A stretch of DNA of 64,000 bases from Treponema sp. (GTDB lineage Bacteria; Spirochaetota; Spirochaetia; Treponematales; Breznakiellaceae): the NCBI GenBank assembly GCA_031256445.1, contig JAIRQN010000063.1, forward strand, positions 1-64,000, read 5' to 3'. The notes under the pieces were generated by a model that was not told the DNA's origin, ran no database searches, and saw nothing but the letters and a program-made list of their open reading frames with translations. Positions 9,277-19,280 of this stretch are shown piece by piece. How positions within the stretch are numbered: the first letter of the stretch is position 1; each line of letters starts with the position of its first letter. Position numbers and translations under genes: made by a program.

Positions 9277-9936
9277 TTAAAATATAAATTTATTTAGGGC
9301 GACAGTGTTTTTTCGGGGACAGACGCCTTCCGCTTCGGGTTCAGTGTCAAAGTCGATGTAGACAAGTATTGCCTGCGGATCGAGTTTCGCGATAATATCT
9401 GCCGCCGTATTGACAGCCATCAGGTACTGTTCGGCAGGACTGAAAGCGCGGCAGGCGGGACATTGGCACCATGTGTTTTCATGGCCTTTATCGGGCAGAA
9501 GGTGAAAAATACGCGGCTTTGTTACGACCTGTACTGCGCGGGTCAGCAATATTTGGGCATTTTCAGCGATTATGCTTATGGTCTTTGGATTGGTCGGACA
9601 GAAATGATGATCATTTTTCCTTTTACCCTGCGCCATGCGGAATAAATCACGGTTAAGCATAAACAGCCGGCCGGGGAGAAACAGCGGAAGATCGCACCCA
9701 CCGGCTTCGATATTGATTTCATATTTCTTTGCCAATTTCATGTATTTCAGGTTTTTTTTGCCGCTGAATACAATATCATTCAAAGAGAAGACCAGGGTGT
9801 CGCATTCATTTTCCATCGCCAGTTTGATGGTTTTCTCGCGTTCCCTCGCGCCAGTTTTTGCGCTTATAAACAGCCTCTTCCTTTCCTGTCCTGCGGGAAT
9901 CTTCGATTTGAGTTCCATAATAATAATATATGGCAT
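9277..9936 (-). CDS. DUF4838-like protein, C-terminally truncated
   Basis: The 219-residue product matches the core of DUF4838 proteins, which accompany polysaccharide-degrading enzymes: a CPTNP stretch near residue 115, then GHENTWCQCPACRAFSPAEQ with the CxCxxC cluster, VNTAADIIAKLDP and LVYIDFDTEPEAEG. In the family the chain continues well beyond this point, but here the frame runs into KFIF and a stop, so the 3' part is missing. There is no signal peptide and no clear ribosome site before either ATG (9936 or 9918). It may be a decaying gene. It diverges from the GlpA-like gene with almost no gap. Confidence 0.5.
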   Translation of the reverse strand: MPYIIIMELKSKIPAGQERKRLFISAKTGAREREKTIKLAMENECDTLVFSLNDIVFSGKKNLKYMKLAKKYEINIEAGGCDLPLFLPGRLFMLNRDLFRMAQGKRKNDHHFCPTNPKTISIIAENAQILLTRAVQVVTKPRIFHLLPDKGHENTWCQCPACRAFSPAEQYLMAVNTAADIIAKLDPQAILVYIDFDTEPEAEGVCPRKNTVALNKFIF

Positions 9937-9965
9937 TTATTAATATTAGGCTATATTATAATTAC

Positions 9966-11411
9966 ATGGAGTCAGAACTTCTGGATGTCGCTATTATTGG
10001 CTGCGGAGTATCGGGAGCCAATATCGCCCGCCGTCTTTGCGCGTATTCAATCAAAACCGCCATTCTGGAGAAAGCCGCGGATGTGTCATTTGGGACTTCC
10101 AAGGCCAATTCCGGCATTATTCACGGAGGTTTTCATCATAACAAAAAGTATTTAAAAGCGCGGCTGGAAATGCAGGGCAGCCTTATGTTTGACCAGTTAA
10201 AGCGTGAGCTGAATTTTCCGTTCCGCAGATGCGGAATAATAGTCGCGGCTCTCCATCATGATGAAATGCAGGTTGTTGAACATCTTTACATGCAGGGTGT
10301 GGAAAATAAAGTAATAGGAATTGAACTATGTTCGCGCCAGCGTATCCTGGAGCTTGAACCGAAACTGTCCGCGGATACCGTAGGCGGCCTATACGCGCCC
10401 GGCGGAGGGATAATTGAGCCGTACCGTTTTGTTTTTGCGCTTGTTGAATCGGCGCTTAAAAACGGCGTGCGGCTGCTGACAAATTTCAGGGTAAGCGGAG
10501 CGGAGAGGCAAAAAGACGGCGGCGGCGATTACTGGATTATCCGCGCCGGGGATAACAGGGAAGTAAAAGCCCGTTATGTGATAAACGCCGCGGGTCTTTT
10601 CGCAGATGAAGTTTCAAAAATTTTCGGCGCGGAAGAATTTAGTATCAGCGCCAGAAAAGGCGAATATTTCCTTTTGGACAGGCTCACCAAAGCCTGCCCG
10701 TCCAGAGTGGTCTTTCCGGTTCCGACCGCTGTTTCAAAAGGCATGCTGGTTATTCCGACTGTGGAAGGCACAGTTCTTGTCGGACCCACTGCCGACGACG
10801 CCGAAGATAAGAATGATTTTTCCGCCACCGCGAATCATTTGGAGAAAATTCTTGTTTCCGGAAAGACCATGATACCTTCCTTAAGCCACAACGATGTTAT
10901 CGCTTCTTTTGCCGGTCTTCGTCCATGTCTTGGCGAGGATTTTTACATAGCCCCTTCGCAGAAAGCGCAGGGTCTTGTGCAGGTAGCGGGCATTCAAAGT
11001 CCGGGCCTTACAGCGTCTCCTGCAATCGGAGAATATGTAAAAAATATTTTACTTGAAATGGGTTTGCAGCTAACGGAAAAGCCGGGATGGAATCCGTATG
11101 TGGAGGATCGCCCGCTTGCAAGGGAACTTGACTCCAGCGGACTGGATAATTTAATAGCGAAGGACAAAGCGTGGGGCAATATAGTCTGCCGCTGCGAAAA
11201 TGTCAGCGAAGCCGAAATAGTGCAGGCTGTCAGACTTGGGCACACAACGCTGGACGGAATAAAATATTTTACCCGCGCGCAGATGGGCCGCTGTCAGGGA
11301 GGTTTTTGCACCTACAAGATAATTAAAATTATTATGAGGGAAACAGGCCTTTCATGGGATGAAATTACAAAACACGGCGGGGAAAGCCGCGTACTGGCTG
11401 GCGTATTATGA
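9966..11411 (+). CDS. FAD-dependent glycerol-3-phosphate dehydrogenase-like protein with BFD [2Fe-2S] domain
   Basis: A protein of about 481 residues. The N-terminal DAO/GlpA-type flavoprotein domain has the dinucleotide motif IIGCGVSG (10-17) and the SGIIHGGFHH region. The C-terminal BFD-like domain binds a [2Fe-2S] cluster through Cys408, Cys410, Cys443 and Cys448 (CRC ... CQGGFC). This matches the GlpA-type subunit of operons in which GlpA, a second FAD oxidoreductase and a DUF1667 protein replace classical GlpABC; oxidation of glycerol-3-phosphate is the usual annotation, but a 2-hydroxyacid is also possible. An earlier ATG at 9930 is in frame but lies in the divergent promoter region; 9966 matches the family start. 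The TATATT at 9952-9957 is only eight bases from the ATG, so the mRNA may lack a leader. Confidence 0.85.
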   Translation: MESELLDVAIIGCGVSGANIARRLCAYSIKTAILEKAADVSFGTSKANSGIIHGGFHHNKKYLKARLEMQGSLMFDQLKRELNFPFRRCGIIVAALHHDEMQVVEHLYMQGVENKVIGIELCSRQRILELEPKLSADTVGGLYAPGGGIIEPYRFVFALVESALKNGVRLLTNFRVSGAERQKDGGGDYWIIRAGDNREVKARYVINAAGLFADEVSKIFGAEEFSISARKGEYFLLDRLTKACPSRVVFPVPTAVSKGMLVIPTVEGTVLVGPTADDAEDKNDFSATANHLEKILVSGKTMIPSLSHNDVIASFAGLRPCLGEDFYIAPSQKAQGLVQVAGIQSPGLTASPAIGEYVKNILLEMGLQLTEKPGWNPYVEDRPLARELDSSGLDNLIAKDKAWGNIVCRCENVSEAEIVQAVRLGHTTLDGIKYFTRAQMGRCQGGFCTYKIIKIIMRETGLSWDEITKHGGESRVLAGVL

Positions 11412-12703
11412 AAGAGCTGCGATACGACGCCGTAGTGATAGGCGCGGGAGCCGCGGGTATGGCGGCAGCTCTTGAGATTGAATCTCAGGGTTTTTCCTGT
11501 GCGGTAATTGAGCGGGAGGATCATCCAGGCGGAATTCTCATGCAGTGCATACATAACGGGTTTGGCCTGCATGAATTTAACGAGGAGTTAACAGGCCCTG
11601 AATTTGCCGAGCGCTTTATAGAACGAGTTATTAAATCAAAGATTGACGTTTACCTGAACACAACTGTTACAAAATTCGCGTTAAAAAATAATTGTGCCCC
11701 AAATCATAATTCACTGTTCCCTGCTTCTTCGGCTTATAAAGAACTTGTCTGCGTCAGTCCTGACGGGATAACCGTAATAGAAAGCAAAGCAGTCCTTCTG
11801 GCTATGGGCTGCCGTGAAAGAAACCGCGGAAATGTCCGGATTCCCGGCTCCCGTCCGGCGGGAGTGTTTACAGCAGGTCTTGCGCAGCGTCTTGTGAACA
11901 TAGAAGGTTATATTCCCGGCAGGGATATTGTTGTAATCGGCTCCGGCGACATCGGGCTGATTATGGCGCGGCGCATGAGCTGGGCAGGCTGTAATGTAAA
12001 GGCAGTGGTGGAAATTATGCCGTATCCCGCCGGATTGACGCGTAATATTGTTCAGTGCCTGCGGGATTTTAACATACCTCTTTACCTTTCATCGCAGACT
12101 ACAGGCATTTTCGGCAATGACAGGGTAGAGGGAATTGAGGTTACTCCCCTGGAAAACGGGCGTCTTTTGCCGGAGAAATGTTTCAGGATAGACTGCGACA
12201 CTGTGCTTTTGTCTGTGGGCCTAATCCCTGAGAACGAACTTTCCCGCGCGGCCGGCGTAGAACTGAACACGGTTACAAACGGGCCATTGGTTGATTCCGG
12301 CTTAATGACCAATATGGAAGGGGTTTTTGCCTGCGGCAATGCGCTTCATGTCCACGACCTTGTTGACTGGGTATGCGAAGAAAGCCGCCGGGCGGGACGT
12401 TTCGCCTGCGCCTGGCTGCGCGGACAGAGACCTTCCCTGCAGATATCCGCCAAAGCCGGCTCCCACGTGCGTTATGTGAACCCGGCGCGGATTGCTCCGG
12501 ACAGGGAAAATATTGTTTACATGCGCTCAATGATAGTAAAAAGCGACGCTGTTCTTGAACTTCGCCTTGATAACCGCGTTATCCGCAGTAAGAAAGAACG
12601 GCACATTCAGCCTTCAGAAATGATCAGTTTTAAACTGGGACCGAAAGATTTTGAAGGTTTTGATATTAATTCCGGTTCAGTTCTGGAATTCAGCATTAAT
12701 TAG
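11408..12703 (+). CDS. NAD(P)/FAD-dependent oxidoreductase partner of the GlpA-like protein
   Basis: A 431-residue pyridine nucleotide-disulphide oxidoreductase-fold protein. The FAD-binding GxGxxG is VVIGAGAAGMAAA (from residue 9), and a second Rossmann motif IVVIGSGDIGLIMARR (near 175) binds NAD(P). The ALPHA-type FAD motif near the end reads GVFACGNALHVHDLVDW. There is no CxxxxC redox disulphide of the lipoamide-dehydrogenase type, so it is likely a NADH/FAD electron-transfer subunit working with the upstream dehydrogenase. Its start overlaps the upstream stop by four bases (ATGA), implying translational coupling and a complex. Not GlpB by sequence, but it takes the same place in the operon. 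Confidence 0.82.
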   Translation: MKELRYDAVVIGAGAAGMAAALEIESQGFSCAVIEREDHPGGILMQCIHNGFGLHEFNEELTGPEFAERFIERVIKSKIDVYLNTTVTKFALKNNCAPNHNSLFPASSAYKELVCVSPDGITVIESKAVLLAMGCRERNRGNVRIPGSRPAGVFTAGLAQRLVNIEGYIPGRDIVVIGSGDIGLIMARRMSWAGCNVKAVVEIMPYPAGLTRNIVQCLRDFNIPLYLSSQTTGIFGNDRVEGIEVTPLENGRLLPEKCFRIDCDTVLLSVGLIPENELSRAAGVELNTVTNGPLVDSGLMTNMEGVFACGNALHVHDLVDWVCEESRRAGRFACAWLRGQRPSLQISAKAGSHVRYVNPARIAPDRENIVYMRSMIVKSDAVLELRLDNRVIRSKKERHIQPSEMISFKLGPKDFEGFDINSGSVLEFSIN

Positions 12704-12726
12704 AATCTGTCTGTAAAGGTAGTAGT

Positions 12727-13173
12727 ATGCGTAGTTTAACATGTATTGTGTGCCCGATAGGATGTTCACTTGACATTGAAGAAAATTGCCTGCCTGACGG
12801 ATGCTGCATGCCTGACGGGTGCGGCACGCCTGACGGATGCGGCTCATCCGGCGTTTCCCGCGCTGACAATCTGTCCGTTACGGGCAACCGCTGCCCCAGA
12901 GGAGCTGTTTACGCTCTTGAGGAAATCCGCGCGCCAAAACGCGTTGTTACGGCGACATGCCGTATCAATGACGGCGCTTTTGCCGGACGAGCTGCCTCTG
13001 TAAAGCGCGTTCCCGTAAAGACGGCATCGCCTTGTCCGCGGGAAAAAATTCCCGCTTTGTTACGCGACATTTACGGCCTTGAAATTCCGCTTCCGGTAAA
13101 AGCGGGCGACGTTCTTGTTTCCAGATGGAACGGCGAAGATATGGATATAATCGCCACAAGGACAATCAGCTGA
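12727..13173 (+). CDS. DUF1667 iron-sulphur/zinc protein with a Cys-rich tandem repeat
   Basis: A 148-residue DUF1667 protein, the small third component of GlpA-like redox operons. The N-terminal cysteine set CIVCPIGC (Cys6, Cys9, Cys13) and the later NRCPRGAVYALEEIRAPKRV are typical and probably hold an Fe-S cluster. Between them family members have a short link, but here an 18-base unit is repeated three times in frame (12790-12807, 12808-12825, 12826-12843), encoding LPDGCC, MPDGCG and TPDGCG and adding four cysteines. The rest (KTASPCPREKIPALLRDIYGLEIPLPVKAGDVL) is normal. It starts 23 bases after the oxidoreductase gene. Confidence 0.85.
   Translation: MRSLTCIVCPIGCSLDIEENCLPDGCCMPDGCGTPDGCGSSGVSRADNLSVTGNRCPRGAVYALEEIRAPKRVVTATCRINDGAFAGRAASVKRVPVKTASPCPREKIPALLRDIYGLEIPLPVKAGDVLVSRWNGEDMDIIATRTIS
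12790..12843 (+). repeat. Three in-frame 18-bp tandem repeats inside the DUF1667 gene
   Basis: Three consecutive 18-base units, each containing the core CCTGACGG(A/G)TGC, follow one another without a break and keep the reading frame. They encode x-Pro-Asp-Gly-Cys-(Cys/Gly). Slippage or unequal recombination could change the copy number by multiples of six residues without breaking the gene. Confidence 0.85.
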
Positions 13174-13616
13174 TGCGGTTAAAAAAGGAAGAAAAATCGC
13201 CGGATGTATTCTGGCGCGATTTCGAGGAAAAAACCGGCGAAAAAGTTCTGGCGCGCGGCTTGGGGAAATATATCCGTGGCTGGGACGAATTTGATAATAA
13301 AAACTGGGGCGGGCTGTGGGGTCTTGTAATCAGCACCTCGGGCGGTTTTCATTTTTATCATTTCCCGCGCAACAGCTGGTTTGACGCTCTTACGCAGTTT
13401 GCCGATTCAGGACAGCAGAAAGAAAAAACATTTTTTATCCCGCGCGATGAAATTATTTCGTCTGATGTTGTAAAAGAGGTAAAGTGGTACAAAAGGCTCT
13501 TTAGCTCTTCGCCGCCGAAACTGGTTATAAAGTACAGGGATGAATCCGGCGCCGAAAAACAGGCGCTTTTTGAAGCGGAGTATGCGGGTAATTATACTCC
13601 TGCGGACTCACAGTAA
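13173..13616 (+). CDS. Conserved small protein of unknown function
   Basis: The ATG at 13173 shares one base with the DUF1667 stop (TGATG), giving a soluble protein of about 147 residues; an in-frame ATG at 13125 lies inside the upstream gene and is less likely. The sequence is rich in Lys, Glu, Trp and Phe (VFWRDFEEKTGEK, GWDEFDNKNWGGLWGLV), has no signal peptide or membrane segment and contains no catalytic motif that I recognise. The tight coupling suggests cotranscription with the redox operon, although its function may be unrelated. Confidence 0.65.
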   Translation: MRLKKEEKSPDVFWRDFEEKTGEKVLARGLGKYIRGWDEFDNKNWGGLWGLVISTSGGFHFYHFPRNSWFDALTQFADSGQQKEKTFFIPRDEIISSDVVKEVKWYKRLFSSSPPKLVIKYRDESGAEKQALFEAEYAGNYTPADSQ

Positions 13617-13617
13617 A

Positions 13618-14415
13618 ATGAAAAGTTACCGGAATTTATTGGGTACGATAAATTACAGCGTTATAACCTTTATTATTCTTGTAATGGTTATATTTCCAAT
13701 TCCCGTATTATTTCTGGATTTTTTATTATTGATCAATTTAGTATTTTCTTTTTTACTGCTGCTGGATGTCTGTTTCAGCAAAAAAAGAGGTGATTATTCG
13801 CTGTTTGCGAATTTCCTTATTGTTTTTACGATTGTTAACCTGTCAATCAATATTGTCATAACAAGGCATATTCTGACATTGGGCGAGGATTTTTTCGATA
13901 TTGTAATACGGTCTGCCGTTTTGCCGCTGACAGGATTAAAATCTGACTGGCTGACGGGCATTCTGGTAATTTTAATTGTGTTAGCTGCCATTTATTTGTT
14001 TTTTATCAGGAAAATCATTAACCGTATGTTCAGAATAACGTCTTTTTATAATCAGCAGGTTAAACAGGAAAAAACGCAGGAAATAGAAGCGCAGTATTAT
14101 ACCCGCGTCATTACAGAAGAAGAAGCCTCGGACAGAAAAGACAATCTTGCCTCGGCGTTTGATTTTTTTGGCACATTGGAAGACGCGATCCGGCTGTTGT
14201 CCTTATATGAGAAATTCAGATTAGTTTTTATTTTTTTGAATTCCGCAGGAGGGTATTTTATCGGCACAAGAATTAAAAATGAAACAGCAAATGACGCTTT
14301 TATTAACTACATATCTCTTGCCATAGGAAGCGGGGTTTTATCGCTGGTTTGCGGCATATTTTTGGCTGCGGCGATTAACGTTTTTGCCGGCCGCGTTAAA
14401 ACCCTGTACCCTTAA
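13618..14415 (+). CDS. Integral membrane protein of unknown function
   Basis: A protein of about 265 residues starting at ATG 13618, one base after the previous stop. Hydrophobic segments at about 12-32, 37-57, 66-88, 120-141, 205-227 and 238-258 suggest six membrane passes. Between the fourth and fifth is a polar, glutamate-rich cytoplasmic or periplasmic loop of about 50 residues (QVKQEKTQEIEAQYYTRVITEEEASDR). I do not recognise the family. It ends with a four-base overlap against the convergent methyltransferase gene. An in-frame ATG at 13540 lies inside the upstream gene and was not used. Confidence 0.65.
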   Translation: MKSYRNLLGTINYSVITFIILVMVIFPIPVLFLDFLLLINLVFSFLLLLDVCFSKKRGDYSLFANFLIVFTIVNLSINIVITRHILTLGEDFFDIVIRSAVLPLTGLKSDWLTGILVILIVLAAIYLFFIRKIINRMFRITSFYNQQVKQEKTQEIEAQYYTRVITEEEASDRKDNLASAFDFFGTLEDAIRLLSLYEKFRLVFIFLNSAGGYFIGTRIKNETANDAFINYISLAIGSGVLSLVCGIFLAAAINVFAGRVKTLYP

Positions 14416-15434
14416 AAGCGCGGCTGCCCGGAGTAGAACTCGTTTACCGCCGCGAAAAACGCGTTAATATTGTCCCAGCTTGACAGCGGAGGTATGTCGC
14501 ACCCGGATGATATTATAAAATGCGGGTATTTTCCGCATTGATTAAGAATATCCAGAGCGGCTTTTCTTATTGACTGCGGAGTGCCGCCCATAAACTGTTC
14601 GGCCGGCGATATGTTGCCCATCGCGATAACATTTTCCGGAATATGCGGCATCATTTCGGCCATATCAATCGCGTTGCCAAAATGATACGCGTCCGCTCCC
14701 GTGTTTAAAATTGAATCTATCATTTTGATTGCCGCGTTTCCGCAATTATGGTATACGACAATAAAATTTTCCTCTTTAACAGTATTTATTATTTTTCGCA
14801 TATACGGTTCGGAGAAATCCCTGGCAAGATCCGGCGATAACATTCCGGTTACAGGTTCGGCCATGACAACGCCGTTTACGCCGGTTTTTTTGTATTCATT
14901 TATGTATGCAATTAAAAAATCAGCCGCTTTGGAGAGAACAAGATGCATCATTTCCGGCTCTTCATAACAGTTGATCATCGCTTCAGAAACGCCGGTCAGC
15001 CTGCCTGCGAGCGAGAACGGGCCGATCGTTCCGCCCAGAACCGGACGATCAGTTATCATTTGAACCGCTTTTTCGGCAGCTTTAAGATAAACCGACGTTC
15101 TGCCCGATCCAATAGGCGGAATTTCAAGAGCCTGAGCGCTTTCCATGCCGCTTATGATGCTTCCTGTAACTGTGGGCACTTCGCCGTCAGAGAATTTTAT
15201 CGTTGAGCCGAAACATTCTGCTTCCAGTGAAAGATCCATTAAACTCACCGACGCGGCGCAGTCGCATTTATCGGCGATTAGCTTCATTCCTCTTGCCTGG
15301 GTATCGCTGTCGGAAATTAAATCTTTAACGGTTATTCCCATAAGCTGAATACATGGAAACGAAAGCACAGGCAGCGGTTTTTTCACTTTTGCCGATTTTA
15401 GCTCATAAAGCCACTGGCGCATGTTTCTTTTCAT
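14412..15434 (-). CDS. MtaA/CmuA-type corrinoid methyltransferase (URO-D superfamily)
   Basis: A 340-residue protein of the uroporphyrinogen decarboxylase superfamily. The zinc-binding set of MtaA/MtbA-type methylcobamide:thiol methyltransferases is present: His229-x-Cys231 in VVYHNCGN and Cys312 in ISSGCDIPP, whereas haem-pathway HemE lacks these. GGTIGPFSLAGRL and MAEPVTGMLSP are family landmarks. It should move a methyl group between a corrinoid protein and a thiol or other acceptor, or demethylate a substrate directly. The corrinoid protein, RACo activator and DUF2284 protein nearby support this. It starts three bases after the beta-barrel gene, so the two share a transcript. The physiological substrate is unknown. 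Confidence 0.8.
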   Translation of the reverse strand: MKRNMRQWLYELKSAKVKKPLPVLSFPCIQLMGITVKDLISDSDTQARGMKLIADKCDCAASVSLMDLSLEAECFGSTIKFSDGEVPTVTGSIISGMESAQALEIPPIGSGRTSVYLKAAEKAVQMITDRPVLGGTIGPFSLAGRLTGVSEAMINCYEEPEMMHLVLSKAADFLIAYINEYKKTGVNGVVMAEPVTGMLSPDLARDFSEPYMRKIINTVKEENFIVVYHNCGNAAIKMIDSILNTGADAYHFGNAIDMAEMMPHIPENVIAMGNISPAEQFMGGTPQSIRKAALDILNQCGKYPHFIISSGCDIPPLSSWDNINAFFAAVNEFYSGQPRF

Positions 15435-15437
15435 GAT

Positions 15438-16391
15438 TTATTTGAACCTGTAGGAGAAAACAGCCGCTACGCGGTAGAATTCCAGGCGCTGCGGATCCGA
15501 AGCGTCAAGAGTTCTGCTGCGGTAATACAAACTGTCGCTGTCCGGTTCATTAAAATTTCTTCTTGTTCGGAACTGCGTAATCACTGTTATGCCAAATTTT
15601 TTAATTATTGAAAAATTTAAAACCGCCGAAAAAGTCCAGCGGATTTTATCGTCTCCCCACGCGGCGCGTCCGGGAGTGTCGTACAGATACAAATCGCTTT
15701 CCGCGAGAAACGCGACTGTATCAAGGAATATCGGCATTTGATATCCGATTAAGTAATTGCCGTAATAATTAAATCCGTTGACATTTTCCCCGTCATCGCT
15801 TTCATAGAACCACGATTCGCCGTCTTGCGCTCTTGAGTATCCTCTGTGGTTAATTTCGTGATAACTTCTTGCTACCACATGATTCCAATCGCCCGGAAAC
15901 AGGGCCGCAAGATCAAACTGTATTGCTCCTCCGGCGTGCGCTTTCCATAGCAGTCCGTCAAAAGCGCCGCCGTCATTTTCTCCCATGCCCTGACCATCAG
16001 GTTTGTTAAACCCAATGCCGTAAATATCGCCGCCGAAAAGATTAATGTTCCAGCCCGATCCGATTCTGACGCCGGCTGAAAACTGGAAAAACGCTATTGG
16101 CGTTAATACCGCTTCGGCAATTCCGTTCAGTGAAACAGGCGAAACCTCGCCTGTCAGTGACAGATCAATATTATTATCCGCCATCAATGGATTTTCATTC
16201 TGTAAAAACGGAAATACAAATCTTTGGGTAAAACCGAGCTTTGCTTCGGGCAGAGTGGAAATCTGCAGCGTCAATCCGCTGGAAGACGAAACGCCTTTTG
16301 ATTTATCCGGCTGTTCCTGCGCCGCAGCTTCCTGCGCGAAAAGCCCCTGCGCTGATAGAATAAGAAGCAGTGAAAATGCAATTCTTTTCAT
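15438..16391 (-). CDS. Secreted beta-barrel-like outer membrane protein, unknown function
   Basis: A 317-residue protein with a clear signal peptide (Lys-Arg, a hydrophobic stretch to about 15, then GLFAQ with cleavage near Ala19-Gln20). The mature part is made of alternating hydrophobic/polar strands with many Tyr, Trp, Phe, Asn and Gly, and ends in ...AAVFSYRFK, with aromatic residues near the C-terminus as in outer membrane barrels. The length suggests 10-14 strands. No family is recognised. GGAGAG lies a few bases before the ATG. It is the upstream partner of the MtaA-like gene, so it might be a channel or sensor for the methylated substrate; this is inference only. Confidence 0.6.
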   Translation of the reverse strand: MKRIAFSLLLILSAQGLFAQEAAAQEQPDKSKGVSSSSGLTLQISTLPEAKLGFTQRFVFPFLQNENPLMADNNIDLSLTGEVSPVSLNGIAEAVLTPIAFFQFSAGVRIGSGWNINLFGGDIYGIGFNKPDGQGMGENDGGAFDGLLWKAHAGGAIQFDLAALFPGDWNHVVARSYHEINHRGYSRAQDGESWFYESDDGENVNGFNYYGNYLIGYQMPIFLDTVAFLAESDLYLYDTPGRAAWGDDKIRWTFSAVLNFSIIKKFGITVITQFRTRRNFNEPDSDSLYYRSRTLDASDPQRLEFYRVAAVFSYRFK

Positions 16392-16419
16392 TTTGCTCTC
16401 CTTGTCATTAACGCTGATA

Positions 16420-16455
16420 ATAGCAAAAATCGGCTTTTTATGCTATGCTCCCCGA
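16420..16455 (+). promoter_or_regulatory. Putative promoter giving a leaderless RACo transcript
   Basis: An extended -10 element, TGC TATGCT (-10 hexamer 16444-16449), lies only six bases before the ATG at 16456. About 18 bases upstream, ATAGCA (16420-16425) runs into an AAAATCGG stretch like that of the citrate synthase promoter. No ribosome-binding site fits in the six-base gap, so transcription would start at or beside the start codon. Confidence 0.45.
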
Positions 16456-17928
16456 ATGGGCGATTCTTTTTTTATCAATTTTAAATCTGAAAATGCAAAC
16501 GGCGTTAAAATTGAATCGAAAAAAGGCGAGACTGTTTTGTCTTCTTTTAACCGCGCGGGAGCCGCCCTGTCCGCTCCCTGCGGGGGAAGGGGAGTATGCG
16601 GAAAATGCCGTTTAACTCTGCTTGACGGGGAGGTCTGTTTAAAAGAAAACGGCGCGGTGCCTGGTGCAAAGAAACCTGTTCATATTAAACCTGGCGGCGC
16701 ATTTCCCGCCTGCCGCGCTATGCCTCTCTCTGACATTACAGTCTGCCTGCCGCCTTTAACGGCGAAATATTCAGCGCCGTTATCTGTCATTCAGGCGGAA
16801 AGAAAGATCAAACGCGCAGGAGCCGCCATTGACATAGGCACTACCACAGTGCAGGCGGAATTGATCGATCTTGATACAGGCGAGTGCATGGAGACTTTTT
16901 TTGCGCCCAATGACCAGCGCGGTTTCGGCGCGGATGTGATGAGCCGCATCTGCGCGGCAAAAAACGGAAAACTTGACGATCTTTTCAGGGCAATCAACAA
17001 TCAGACGGAAAATCTGCTGCGGCATTATATCAACAGGTGGAATCTTGACGGCATTGAACAGTGCGCAGTCAGCGGAAACACAACCATGCTGCACATTTTT
17101 TGCCGCGCAGATCCTTCCCCGATGGGAGAAGCTCCCTATGCTCCGCAGTTTCTTGAAGAGCGGATTTTTAAAGGCGGCGAGCTTTCCCTCAGCGCGCGGC
17201 AGGTTGTCATGCTTCCCGGAATTTCAGCGTTTGTCGGCGCTGATATCACATCAGGTTTGGCTTTTATTGACATAATGAACAGAAAGGAAAATTCCCTTTT
17301 TGTTGACATCGGGACAAACGGAGAGATGGCGGTGTGGAATGAAAGCGAAAAACGGCTGCTGTGCTGTTCAACCGCGGCAGGCCCGTGTTTTGAAGGAGCG
17401 CAGATATCGTGCGGCATGAGCGCGTCTGATTTTATTGACACTATTGCGTTAATGAAGAGGACAGGCGCTATAAACGCGGCCGGCGCGTTAGCTGAAGAAT
17501 ATTCGGATGGGCGGCGCGGAGGATACCCCGCGTCCGGAGGCATTGTTACTCAAAAAGATGTAAGAGAGTTTCAGCTTGCAAAAAGCGCGATTTATTCCGG
17601 AATTAAAACGCTTTGCGCTTCTGCGGCATCCATGCCGGCAGAAATTGAGCCGCAGGATTTTGACAGTATTTATATCGCAGGAGGACTTGGATTTTTTATC
17701 AATCTGGAAAGCGCCGCTGAAACAGGACTGCTGCCGCGTTTTTTAAACGGCGGTTTAAAAATAAAGACCGCCGTATGCGGCAACACAAGCCTAATGGGCG
17801 CGGTAAAGAGCATGACAGACCCGTCATTCCTGCCGCGCTGCCGCGAAATAATCAAGCGCAGCAGCGTAATCGATCTTGCCAAATCAGAAATGTTTGCGCG
17901 GGAGTTTACAGATAATATGTGGTTTTAA
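16456..17928 (+). CDS. Corrinoid reductive activase (RACo-like; ferredoxin + DUF4445 ASKHA ATPase)
   Basis: A 490-residue protein from ATG 16456 (longer upstream starts fall inside the divergent barrel gene). The N-terminal plant-type ferredoxin has Cys42, Cys48, Cys51 (APCGGRGVCGKC) and Cys86 (FPACRA) for a [2Fe-2S] cluster. The rest is the ASKHA ATPase-like domain of RACo: AIDIGTTTVQAELID (124-138), AVSGNTTMLHI, FVDIGTNGEMA and IAGGLGFFI. RACo reactivates Co(II) corrinoid proteins to Co(I) with ATP and ferredoxin-level electrons, and the presumed client is the adjacent corrinoid protein. It is shorter than many family members, with a reduced linker between the ferredoxin and ATPase parts. 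Confidence 0.88.
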   Translation: MGDSFFINFKSENANGVKIESKKGETVLSSFNRAGAALSAPCGGRGVCGKCRLTLLDGEVCLKENGAVPGAKKPVHIKPGGAFPACRAMPLSDITVCLPPLTAKYSAPLSVIQAERKIKRAGAAIDIGTTTVQAELIDLDTGECMETFFAPNDQRGFGADVMSRICAAKNGKLDDLFRAINNQTENLLRHYINRWNLDGIEQCAVSGNTTMLHIFCRADPSPMGEAPYAPQFLEERIFKGGELSLSARQVVMLPGISAFVGADITSGLAFIDIMNRKENSLFVDIGTNGEMAVWNESEKRLLCCSTAAGPCFEGAQISCGMSASDFIDTIALMKRTGAINAAGALAEEYSDGRRGGYPASGGIVTQKDVREFQLAKSAIYSGIKTLCASAASMPAEIEPQDFDSIYIAGGLGFFINLESAAETGLLPRFLNGGLKIKTAVCGNTSLMGAVKSMTDPSFLPRCREIIKRSSVIDLAKSEMFAREFTDNMWF

Positions 17929-17933
17929 CGCGG

Positions 17934-18578
17934 TTAATCGAAAAATGCGCGGCAGACATCAGCTGCCGAGGCGGCATCCTGAGTGTATGCGTCAGCGCCG
18001 ATTTCATCCGCAAAACCCTGAGTTACAGGAGCGCCGCCGACCATCACTTTTATTTTGTCCCGTACGCCAGAATCTTTAAGAGCGTCTATAACATCCTTCT
18101 GGACAGTCATTGTTGTGGTAAGAAGAGCTGACAGGCACAGGACTTTCGCGTCTGTTTCTTTCACTTTGTCCACTACCGCCTGGGTATCGCAGTCTACGCC
18201 AAGGTCTTCCACTTCGATGCCCTTGCCCTCGATCATCATTTTTACAAGGTTCTTCCCGATATCGTGAAGATCGCCTTTTACCGTGCATATTATCGCTTTT
18301 CCGACCGGTTGTACGCCTGCCTTCGCAAGATGAGGTTTCAGGGCTTCAGTGGCTTTGTTCATGGCGCGCGCCGCGATCAGCACTTCAGGAACAAATACTT
18401 CGTTGCGTTTGAATTTTCCGCCTACAATATTCATTCCGGACATAAGGGCATCCTGCAGAATATCCGCCGGCTGCGCTCCGGCGTCAAGCGCTTTCTGTAC
18501 TGAACCGACAATATCTTTCGCTTTTCCCTTCTGAAGAAGTTCCGATATTTCATCAAAAATTTCACTATATTCAGACAT
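17934..18578 (-). CDS. Corrinoid (B12-binding) methyl-carrier protein, MtgC/MtbC type
   Basis: A 214-residue protein with the two-domain plan of corrinoid methyl carriers: a helical cap (about 1-88, with GMNIVGGKFKRNEVFVPEVL) and a Rossmann-like cobalamin domain. The signature GDLHDIGKN contains Asp103, His105 (lower cobalt ligand) and Gly108, followed later by SALLTTTM and VGGAPVTQGFADEIGAD. It shuttles methyl groups between methyltransferases. An AGGAGC site precedes the ATG. It converges with the RACo gene (six bases between stops) and lies downstream of the DUF2284 gene. No substrate-specific MttB/MtgB/MtaB-type enzyme is encoded nearby. Confidence 0.93.
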   Translation of the reverse strand: MSEYSEIFDEISELLQKGKAKDIVGSVQKALDAGAQPADILQDALMSGMNIVGGKFKRNEVFVPEVLIAARAMNKATEALKPHLAKAGVQPVGKAIICTVKGDLHDIGKNLVKMMIEGKGIEVEDLGVDCDTQAVVDKVKETDAKVLCLSALLTTTMTVQKDVIDALKDSGVRDKIKVMVGGAPVTQGFADEIGADAYTQDAASAADVCRAFFD

Positions 18579-18648
18579 AACCCGCTCCTGAATTTGATTT
18601 TATTTACAATTGCATTGTAATATTTTTTTTTATTTTAGTCGAGTGTTT

Positions 18649-19206
18649 TCATTCAGTTATATTTAATGGAACCATGGAAAAAAAAGTGACTGTTCCAGGT
18701 CCGTTATTGTAGGCGATACCGGCTGCTTTACTCAGTTCAGTGACATTGACGCCTGCCGCTTCAATAGAGCCAATCATTTTTTTGGGAAACCGGCACCGTT
18801 TCGGGAAAGAACATACATTCCTGCCGTTTATGTTTGTGCATACAGGGCAGCTTCCCGCGCCGTAAACAGGAGACCCTTTAAACTTTTTTTTTACTTCAGC
18901 GGTTAACAAAGCATGCAGTTCCCTTCCTTTTGTCATTCCTTCATAATCAAAAGAATCCTCCATAACATGTTTGGTGGTAAATACCAGAATTTTTTCATGG
19001 GAAAGAATCTTTTTTTTCTGTTCATCTGCGCTTTCGCATACAGGCGGGCAAGTCCATGATTTGTTGTAATTGCCGCAGGCGTTGGTTTTACAGTAATCAA
19101 GCAAGCCAGCGGAGAAGACAAGCGCGGCGGCTGGTATAACCTTCCATTCGTGAATTGAAACGCCCGCTGACACGGCGGCTTTATAAAGGATTTTATTATA
19201 ATCCAT
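18649..19206 (-). CDS. DUF2284 cysteine-rich metal-binding protein
   Basis: A 185-residue protein with the two cysteine clusters of DUF2284: Cys39, Cys44, Cys53 and Cys57 (CKTNACGNYNKSWTCPPVC), and Cys120, Cys123, Cys132 and Cys138 (CPVC ... CSFPKRCRFP). Eight spaced cysteines are consistent with Fe-S clusters or zinc. Family members are often found with corrinoid methyltransferases in anaerobes, and here it sits 70 bases upstream of the corrinoid carrier on the same strand. The biochemical role is unknown; electron delivery to corrinoid reactivation is one possibility. No strong ribosome site is visible. Confidence 0.75.
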   Translation of the reverse strand: MDYNKILYKAAVSAGVSIHEWKVIPAAALVFSAGLLDYCKTNACGNYNKSWTCPPVCESADEQKKKILSHEKILVFTTKHVMEDSFDYEGMTKGRELHALLTAEVKKKFKGSPVYGAGSCPVCTNINGRNVCSFPKRCRFPKKMIGSIEAAGVNVTELSKAAGIAYNNGPGTVTFFSMVPLNITE

Positions 19207-19248: not shown

Positions 19249-19280
19249 AGTTGTTCAATAACTGAAGTTATCGAACAACT
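19249..19280. repeat. 32-bp imperfect palindrome (intergenic family member 1)
   Basis: AGTTGTTCAATAACT (19249-19263) and AGTTATCGAACAACT (19266-19280) are 15-base arms with one mismatch around a GA centre. The element lies between divergent genes, so it cannot be a terminator for either, and no T-run follows. Similar elements occur at 26985-27018, 36202-36233 and 59674-59709. A mobile or REP-like repeat is as likely as an operator. Confidence 0.6.

Follow-up and report, generated by a model that had tools for sequence, protein, structure and literature searches.

In gut anaerobes, corrinoid methyltransferases decide how carbon is recovered from methylated compounds. A termite-gut-type spirochaete, Treponema sp. 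(assembly GCA_031256445.1; here genome G000, 97.7% complete), carries on contig JAIRQN010000063.1 a group of genes that resembles such a system, which raises the question of what methyl group it would handle and whether its URO-D enzyme would stand on the donor or on the acceptor side of the corrinoid protein. A sequence-only reading of the window, by which we mean the whole stretch of 64,000 nt that was analyzed, had placed genes for a URO-D protein, a corrinoid carrier, a RACo activator, and a DUF2284 protein at 14412-19206, and had interpreted them as a corrinoid methyl-transfer module in which no substrate methyltransferase was visible.

Results

Gene content and layout of the locus

The four genes were correctly recognized and placed, and a fifth one, absent from the earlier reading, lies among them:

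14412-15434, minus strand: UROD-A, an MtaA-like zinc methyltransferase of the URO-D superfamily, 340 aa (PF01208, E = 5e-53)
15438-16391, minus strand: outer-membrane-like protein, 317 aa (no Pfam or NCBIfam match)
16456-17928, plus strand: RACo-type reductive activase of corrinoid proteins, 490 aa (PF14574, PF17651, PF00111; PDB 3zyy)
17934-18578, minus strand: stand-alone corrinoid carrier with the cobalt-ligand motif GDLHDIGKN, 214 aa (PF02310, PF02607; PDB 1y80, E = 1e-56)
18649-19206, minus strand: DUF2284 protein, 185 aa (PF10050, E = 1e-35)

The grouping is not due to chance, since these genes are also found side by side elsewhere in Treponema and in Lachnospiraceae, Oscillospiraceae, and other Clostridia. 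Because the genes lie on both strands, with the RACo and corrinoid genes convergent, the module is a neighbourhood, and a single operon of the four genes was rejected on strand and conservation. A longer RACo start at 16045 is probably wrong, given that it overlaps another gene. The 317-aa outer-membrane-like gene is located 3 bp upstream of UROD-A and was found by tblastn of the fetched loci in the source genome only; we therefore rejected it as a conserved part of the module, to which it probably does not belong. Further out, a 291-aa protein (13540-14415) resembles FlhA (FHIPEP) solely over its N-terminal membrane part, the cytoplasmic domain being absent, and GlpA/GlpB-like dehydrogenase genes with DUF1667 (9930-13173) are syntenic beside UROD-A in other Treponema. 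Some Treponema relatives have a beta-carbonic-anhydrase-family gene directly upstream of UROD-A (L080:10503-11069, L082:8755-9318), which is absent from the window.

No B12 riboswitch was found near the locus, the Rfam scan of the window returning only a tRNA, and the promoter and terminator scans gave no more matches than in shuffled sequence. A palindrome, TTGTTCGATAACTTCAGTTATTGAACAA, lies upstream of DUF2284 at 19251-19278; the core of this palindrome, GTTCRATAACTTNAGTTATYGAAC, is found again on contigs C57 and C107, and a role as dedicated operator was rejected on this ground. A PocR/AraC regulator accompanies the carrier, RACo, and DUF2284, which we refer to together as the hub, in both Treponema and Clostridia.

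UROD-A forms a clade of its own

The zinc ligands proposed earlier, H229, C231, and C312, can be read directly from the sequence of UROD-A. They are invariant, within the motif HNCG...SSGCD, across 25 aligned sequences (relatives of 42 to 83% identity) and align with the zinc ligands of MtaA (4ay7); one clostridial copy outside this alignment (L048) reads HNF. The AlphaFold model of UROD-A (pLDDT 93.6) has MtaA as top structural match by TM (4ay8, TM 0.85; HemE, ∼0.8), at an identity of ∼22% in the fold alignment with 4ay7. The best NCBIfam scores, 135 bits, are those of the mtaA_cmuA models (TIGR01463, PRK06252), whose cut-offs of 235 to 244 are not reached; the hemE model gives 69 bits for a cut-off of 303.

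We built trees with HemE, MtaA, and the three URO-Ds of one Acetoanaerobium mlp-type cluster as references. UROD-A forms its own clade (support 100/100) apart from HemE, and is separate from MtaA, from the Acetoanaerobium URO-D with which MtaA groups, and from the two remaining His-Cys-Cys URO-Ds of the Acetoanaerobium cluster; the deep branching order among URO-D clades is not settled by these trees. The sequence-only reading had named grouping with haem-pathway HemE as the outcome that would speak against it; this grouping was not observed, and a HemE identity was rejected on both score and clade.

The UROD-A clade has members in Treponema, Clostridia, Eggerthellaceae, Akkermansia, and Prevotella. 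It is an uncharacterized clade common to many gut bacteria: plasmid and literature searches yielded no characterized member, and to our knowledge none has been assayed. The majority of the Treponema copies fall in a single clade within the clostridial sequences, a topology which suggests that UROD-A was gained in Treponema by horizontal transfer. A second, variable URO-D is frequently linked to UROD-A or fused with it. In Eggerthellaceae and kin (L032-L039), it occurs in a tandem fusion of ∼700 aa with a second URO-D domain, and in Prevotella (L042, L044, and L045; e.g., L044:11669-14497), a URO-D-like N terminus (HLDG) is fused to homocysteine methyltransferase and B12 domains, whereas the MetH folate domain is missing.

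Corrinoid protein, RACo, and DUF2284

With the methyltransferase corrinoid model TIGR02370, the carrier protein reaches 211 bits, versus 131 bits with MetH; assignment to a methionine synthase-only type, the other outcome that would have counted against a methyl-transfer module, was thus not obtained, and the module interpretation is supported. RACo enzymes return corrinoid Co(II) to Co(I), and the one encoded here is of the usual three-domain kind, with 2Fe-2S, middle, and ASKHA C-terminal domains. The DUF2284 protein does contain eight cysteines, as had been counted, and seven of them are invariant in 27 relatives, the exception being residue C57. The best fold matches of its AlphaFold model (pLDDT 92.7), all weak (E of 0.03 to 0.2, TM ∼0.4), are QueG and reductive dehalogenases, which are cobalamin-dependent Fe-S enzymes. 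This match is no more than a hint that DUF2284 may be the Fe-S electron donor of the corrinoid system; our literature search found no paper on DUF2284 function.

The hub is more widespread than UROD-A

We surveyed 200 Treponemataceae genomes, with counts made by hand and orthologs of the window's corrinoid protein defined by an identity of at least 64%. Such orthologs are present in ∼46 genomes and UROD-A in 11. The DUF2284-corrinoid-RACo group occurs without UROD-A in G166, G168, G172, G177, and G188, and in G166 and G177 it adjoins a citrate synthase gene whose family is also represented near the hub of the window. In G007, G080, and G121, the same slot next to the corrinoid gene is taken by a different His-Cys-Cys URO-D, UROD-T; MtaB is encoded beside the hub corrinoid protein in three genomes (G007, G196, and G197), and in other relatives the URO-D beside the hub is of the HSCG or the HLD type. 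At least one URO-D is found in 41 of the 46 hub genomes versus 81 of the 154 others (Fisher p = 4e-6, with no correction for relatedness or completeness), and the five hub genomes without URO-D are 57 to 82% complete. Judged from gene content, the best reading is that DUF2284, the corrinoid protein, and RACo would be an older unit than UROD-A in Treponemataceae, and the pairing with UROD-A, UROD-T, other URO-Ds, or MtaB makes the hub look like a common unit for methyl carriage and repair that serves several URO-D enzymes.

Candidate partners in the rest of the genome

The earlier statement that no MtaB, MtbB, MttB, or MtvB is present holds in so far as MtaB has no match within the window and the suggested genome-wide search for MttB (PF06253) found none in the 97.7%-complete genome. 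Listing MtvB as a separate missing enzyme is misleading, since MtvB belongs to the URO-D superfamily (PMC13222342). An MttB partner for the module was accordingly rejected, and the use of methylamines through the MttB route, one of the donors that had been envisaged, is unlikely.

The only match to the pterin-binding domain PF00809 in the genome is a MetH-like protein on contig C84, cut by the contig end, which ends after the B12 domain; the MetH activation domain (PF02965) is found nowhere in the genome. The Wood-Ljungdahl pathway, which had been proposed as a check, is represented by CODH/ACS on contig C107, where acsA, acsB, acsC, and acsD are all present (AcsA, an AcsB-AcsD fusion, AcsC) together with AcsV, the second RACo of the genome. 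In principle, methyl groups could thus feed acetogenesis; no AcsE was found with these genes and no folate entry enzyme in the genome beside MetH. AcsB and AcsD are fused into one protein of 1155 aa (L089:10512-13979). The CODH/ACS genes are preceded (L089:2667-4645) by those of a stand-alone homocysteine S-methyltransferase of 295 aa and of a 354-aa protein with HCCG...SCGTG motifs that resembles the MetE core, a pair which possibly constitutes a folate-independent methionine route.

The genome encodes two further URO-Ds, on contigs C57 and C60, both without the third cysteine. The contig C57 gene (6176-7204) lies near a GH94 gene (L009:949-7204). Homologs of its product occur in 3 of the 11 UROD-A genomes (G000, G152, and G190 only), and because it does not track UROD-A, it is weaker as a fixed partner.

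Discussion

The locus is a variant of the corrinoid methyl-transfer systems, made of known kinds of parts in an unusual combination. With MtaA, the methylcobamide:coenzyme M methyltransferase of MtaABC, UROD-A shares the URO-D fold, a His-x-Cys...Cys zinc site, and a corrinoid carrier as partner, and related loci encode MtaB next to this carrier. The two differ by their low identity, by their separate clades, and by the curated MtaA/CmuA cut-offs that UROD-A misses, and neither coenzyme M nor methanogenesis is expected for this locus. Also close are the type 1 mlp clusters of anaerobes, in which MtaA-like His-Cys-Cys proteins accompany a corrinoid protein and a RACo-type activase (Kountz and Balskus, PMC10418091), with no folate methyltransferase alongside, as at our locus. 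These clusters are defined by at least two Mlps, a corrinoid protein, and a Ram protein, all transcribed the same way and uninterrupted by a divergent gene, whereas here a single URO-D is found, the genes lie on both strands with RACo opposite, and DUF2284 is present. For the criterion of >25% identity to a characterized SCMT, the comparison covered MtaA (4ay7), at 22%, and for that of a place in the Mlp1, Mlp2, or Mlp3 clades it covered the three URO-Ds of one type-1-like Acetoanaerobium cluster, from whose clades UROD-A is separate. The O-demethylases MtvB, OdmB, and VdmB and the chloromethane enzyme CdmB likewise combine a URO-D superfamily methyltransferase with a corrinoid protein and an activating enzyme; their substrates are O-methyl aromatics or chloromethane, and a pterin methyltransferase is part of these systems, whereas none except MetH was found here. 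CmuA, finally, has a URO-D domain working with a corrinoid domain, as here, but fuses both and has CmuB, whereas our proteins are separate and no CmuB-like partner was found.

Our preferred explanation, to which we give a probability of about 50%, is that a corrinoid hub of general use acquired, by horizontal transfer, an MtaA-type UROD-A that acts on the thiol side, the methyl donors being handled by enzymes encoded elsewhere. RACo would keep the cobalt of the carrier reduced, with electrons probably coming from DUF2284, and UROD-A would be the more recent arrival, whose donor most likely resembled Clostridia. The methyl group would be loaded on the carrier by methyltransferases encoded apart from the hub, with the URO-D of contig C57 as a candidate, and UROD-A would most likely exchange it between the corrinoid of the hub and a thiol, or a selenol, held on the His-Cys-Cys zinc, the role that MtaA has in MtaABC. 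The suggestion of the sequence-only reading that a distant methyltransferase is used remains plausible. We propose the acceptor side as most likely for UROD-A by analogy with the MtaABC of G007 and G197, and in view of the variable second URO-D beside or fused to it. We favour this explanation because of the invariant motif, the 100/100 split from HemE, MtaA as top TM match, the hubs without UROD-A, with UROD-T, or with MtaB, the Fisher association, the second URO-D, and the clostridial nesting. Against it count the ∼22% identity to MtaA, the unsettled deep URO-D branching, the assignment of the contig C57 URO-D as partner by clade only, with homologs that do not track UROD-A, and the homocysteine acceptor domain beside UROD-A in Prevotella, which agrees with a donor role of UROD-A no less than with an acceptor role.

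The converse direction, in which UROD-A would transfer a methyl group from a methyl-sulfur or methyl-selenium compound to the corrinoid protein, as proposed for Mlp, with release to another thiol or to MetH, is possible though not probable. The His-Cys-Cys zinc suits soft donors and is the set associated with S/Se-methyltransferases, ClMlp2 moved a methyl group from methylcobalamin to selenide (PMC10418091), and no first methyltransferase adjoins UROD-A; on the other side, UROD-A lies outside the clades of the mlp-type cluster URO-Ds compared and is often accompanied by the second URO-D. We consider it unlikely that UROD-A directly demethylates methoxylated aromatics or methanol to feed the Wood-Ljungdahl pathway, even with CODH/ACS genes in the genome and MtaB adjoining the same hub in relatives: the zinc set is of the sulfur type, the sole pterin-binding methyltransferase is MetH-like, and neither AcsE nor MttB was found. 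The methoxylated aromatic donor envisaged earlier is hence not indicated.

Quite unlikely, too, is a module serving mainly methionine synthesis, in which the methyl-corrinoid would methylate homocysteine and RACo would also reactivate a MetH devoid of its own activation domain. Prevotella pairs UROD-A with the URO-D/homocysteine methyltransferase/B12 fusion and a separate MetH activation domain, and the lack of PF02965 and the end of MetH after its B12 domain would fit this scheme, but the genome has a second RACo, AcsV, and the stand-alone homocysteine methyltransferase elsewhere, and nothing ties these to the locus. As for a haem-pathway decarboxylase with unrelated neighbours, membership of the same Pfam family speaks for it; the hemE score, the clade apart from HemE, and the conserved linkage with corrinoid genes reduce its probability to a negligible level.

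Returning to the hub with an added UROD-A, the neighbours in relatives offer a lead on the methyl source. A GH10-domain gene directly follows the hub corrinoid gene in four Treponema genomes, L020 contains an overlapping operon of a (sugar) transporter, GH127, UROD-T, GH13, and UROD-A, and UROD-A lies beside GH42/DUF2961 in L088, beside GH2 in L031, and near GH31, GH141, and rhamnosidase genes in Prevotella. Gut bacteria carry many glycoside-hydrolase genes, and these neighbourhoods are a lead only. They bring us to the doubtful, though new, idea that interchangeable URO-Ds on a hub shared by anaerobic gut bacteria might strip methyl groups from the plant cell wall (O-methyl sugars of the 4-O-methylglucuronate type, or methanol) and that UROD-A might pass them to a thiol. 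If true, this would be a methyl source hardly considered so far in termite, rumen, and human guts. Together, a widespread uncharacterized URO-D clade and its swappable carrier unit give DUF2284 a testable role.
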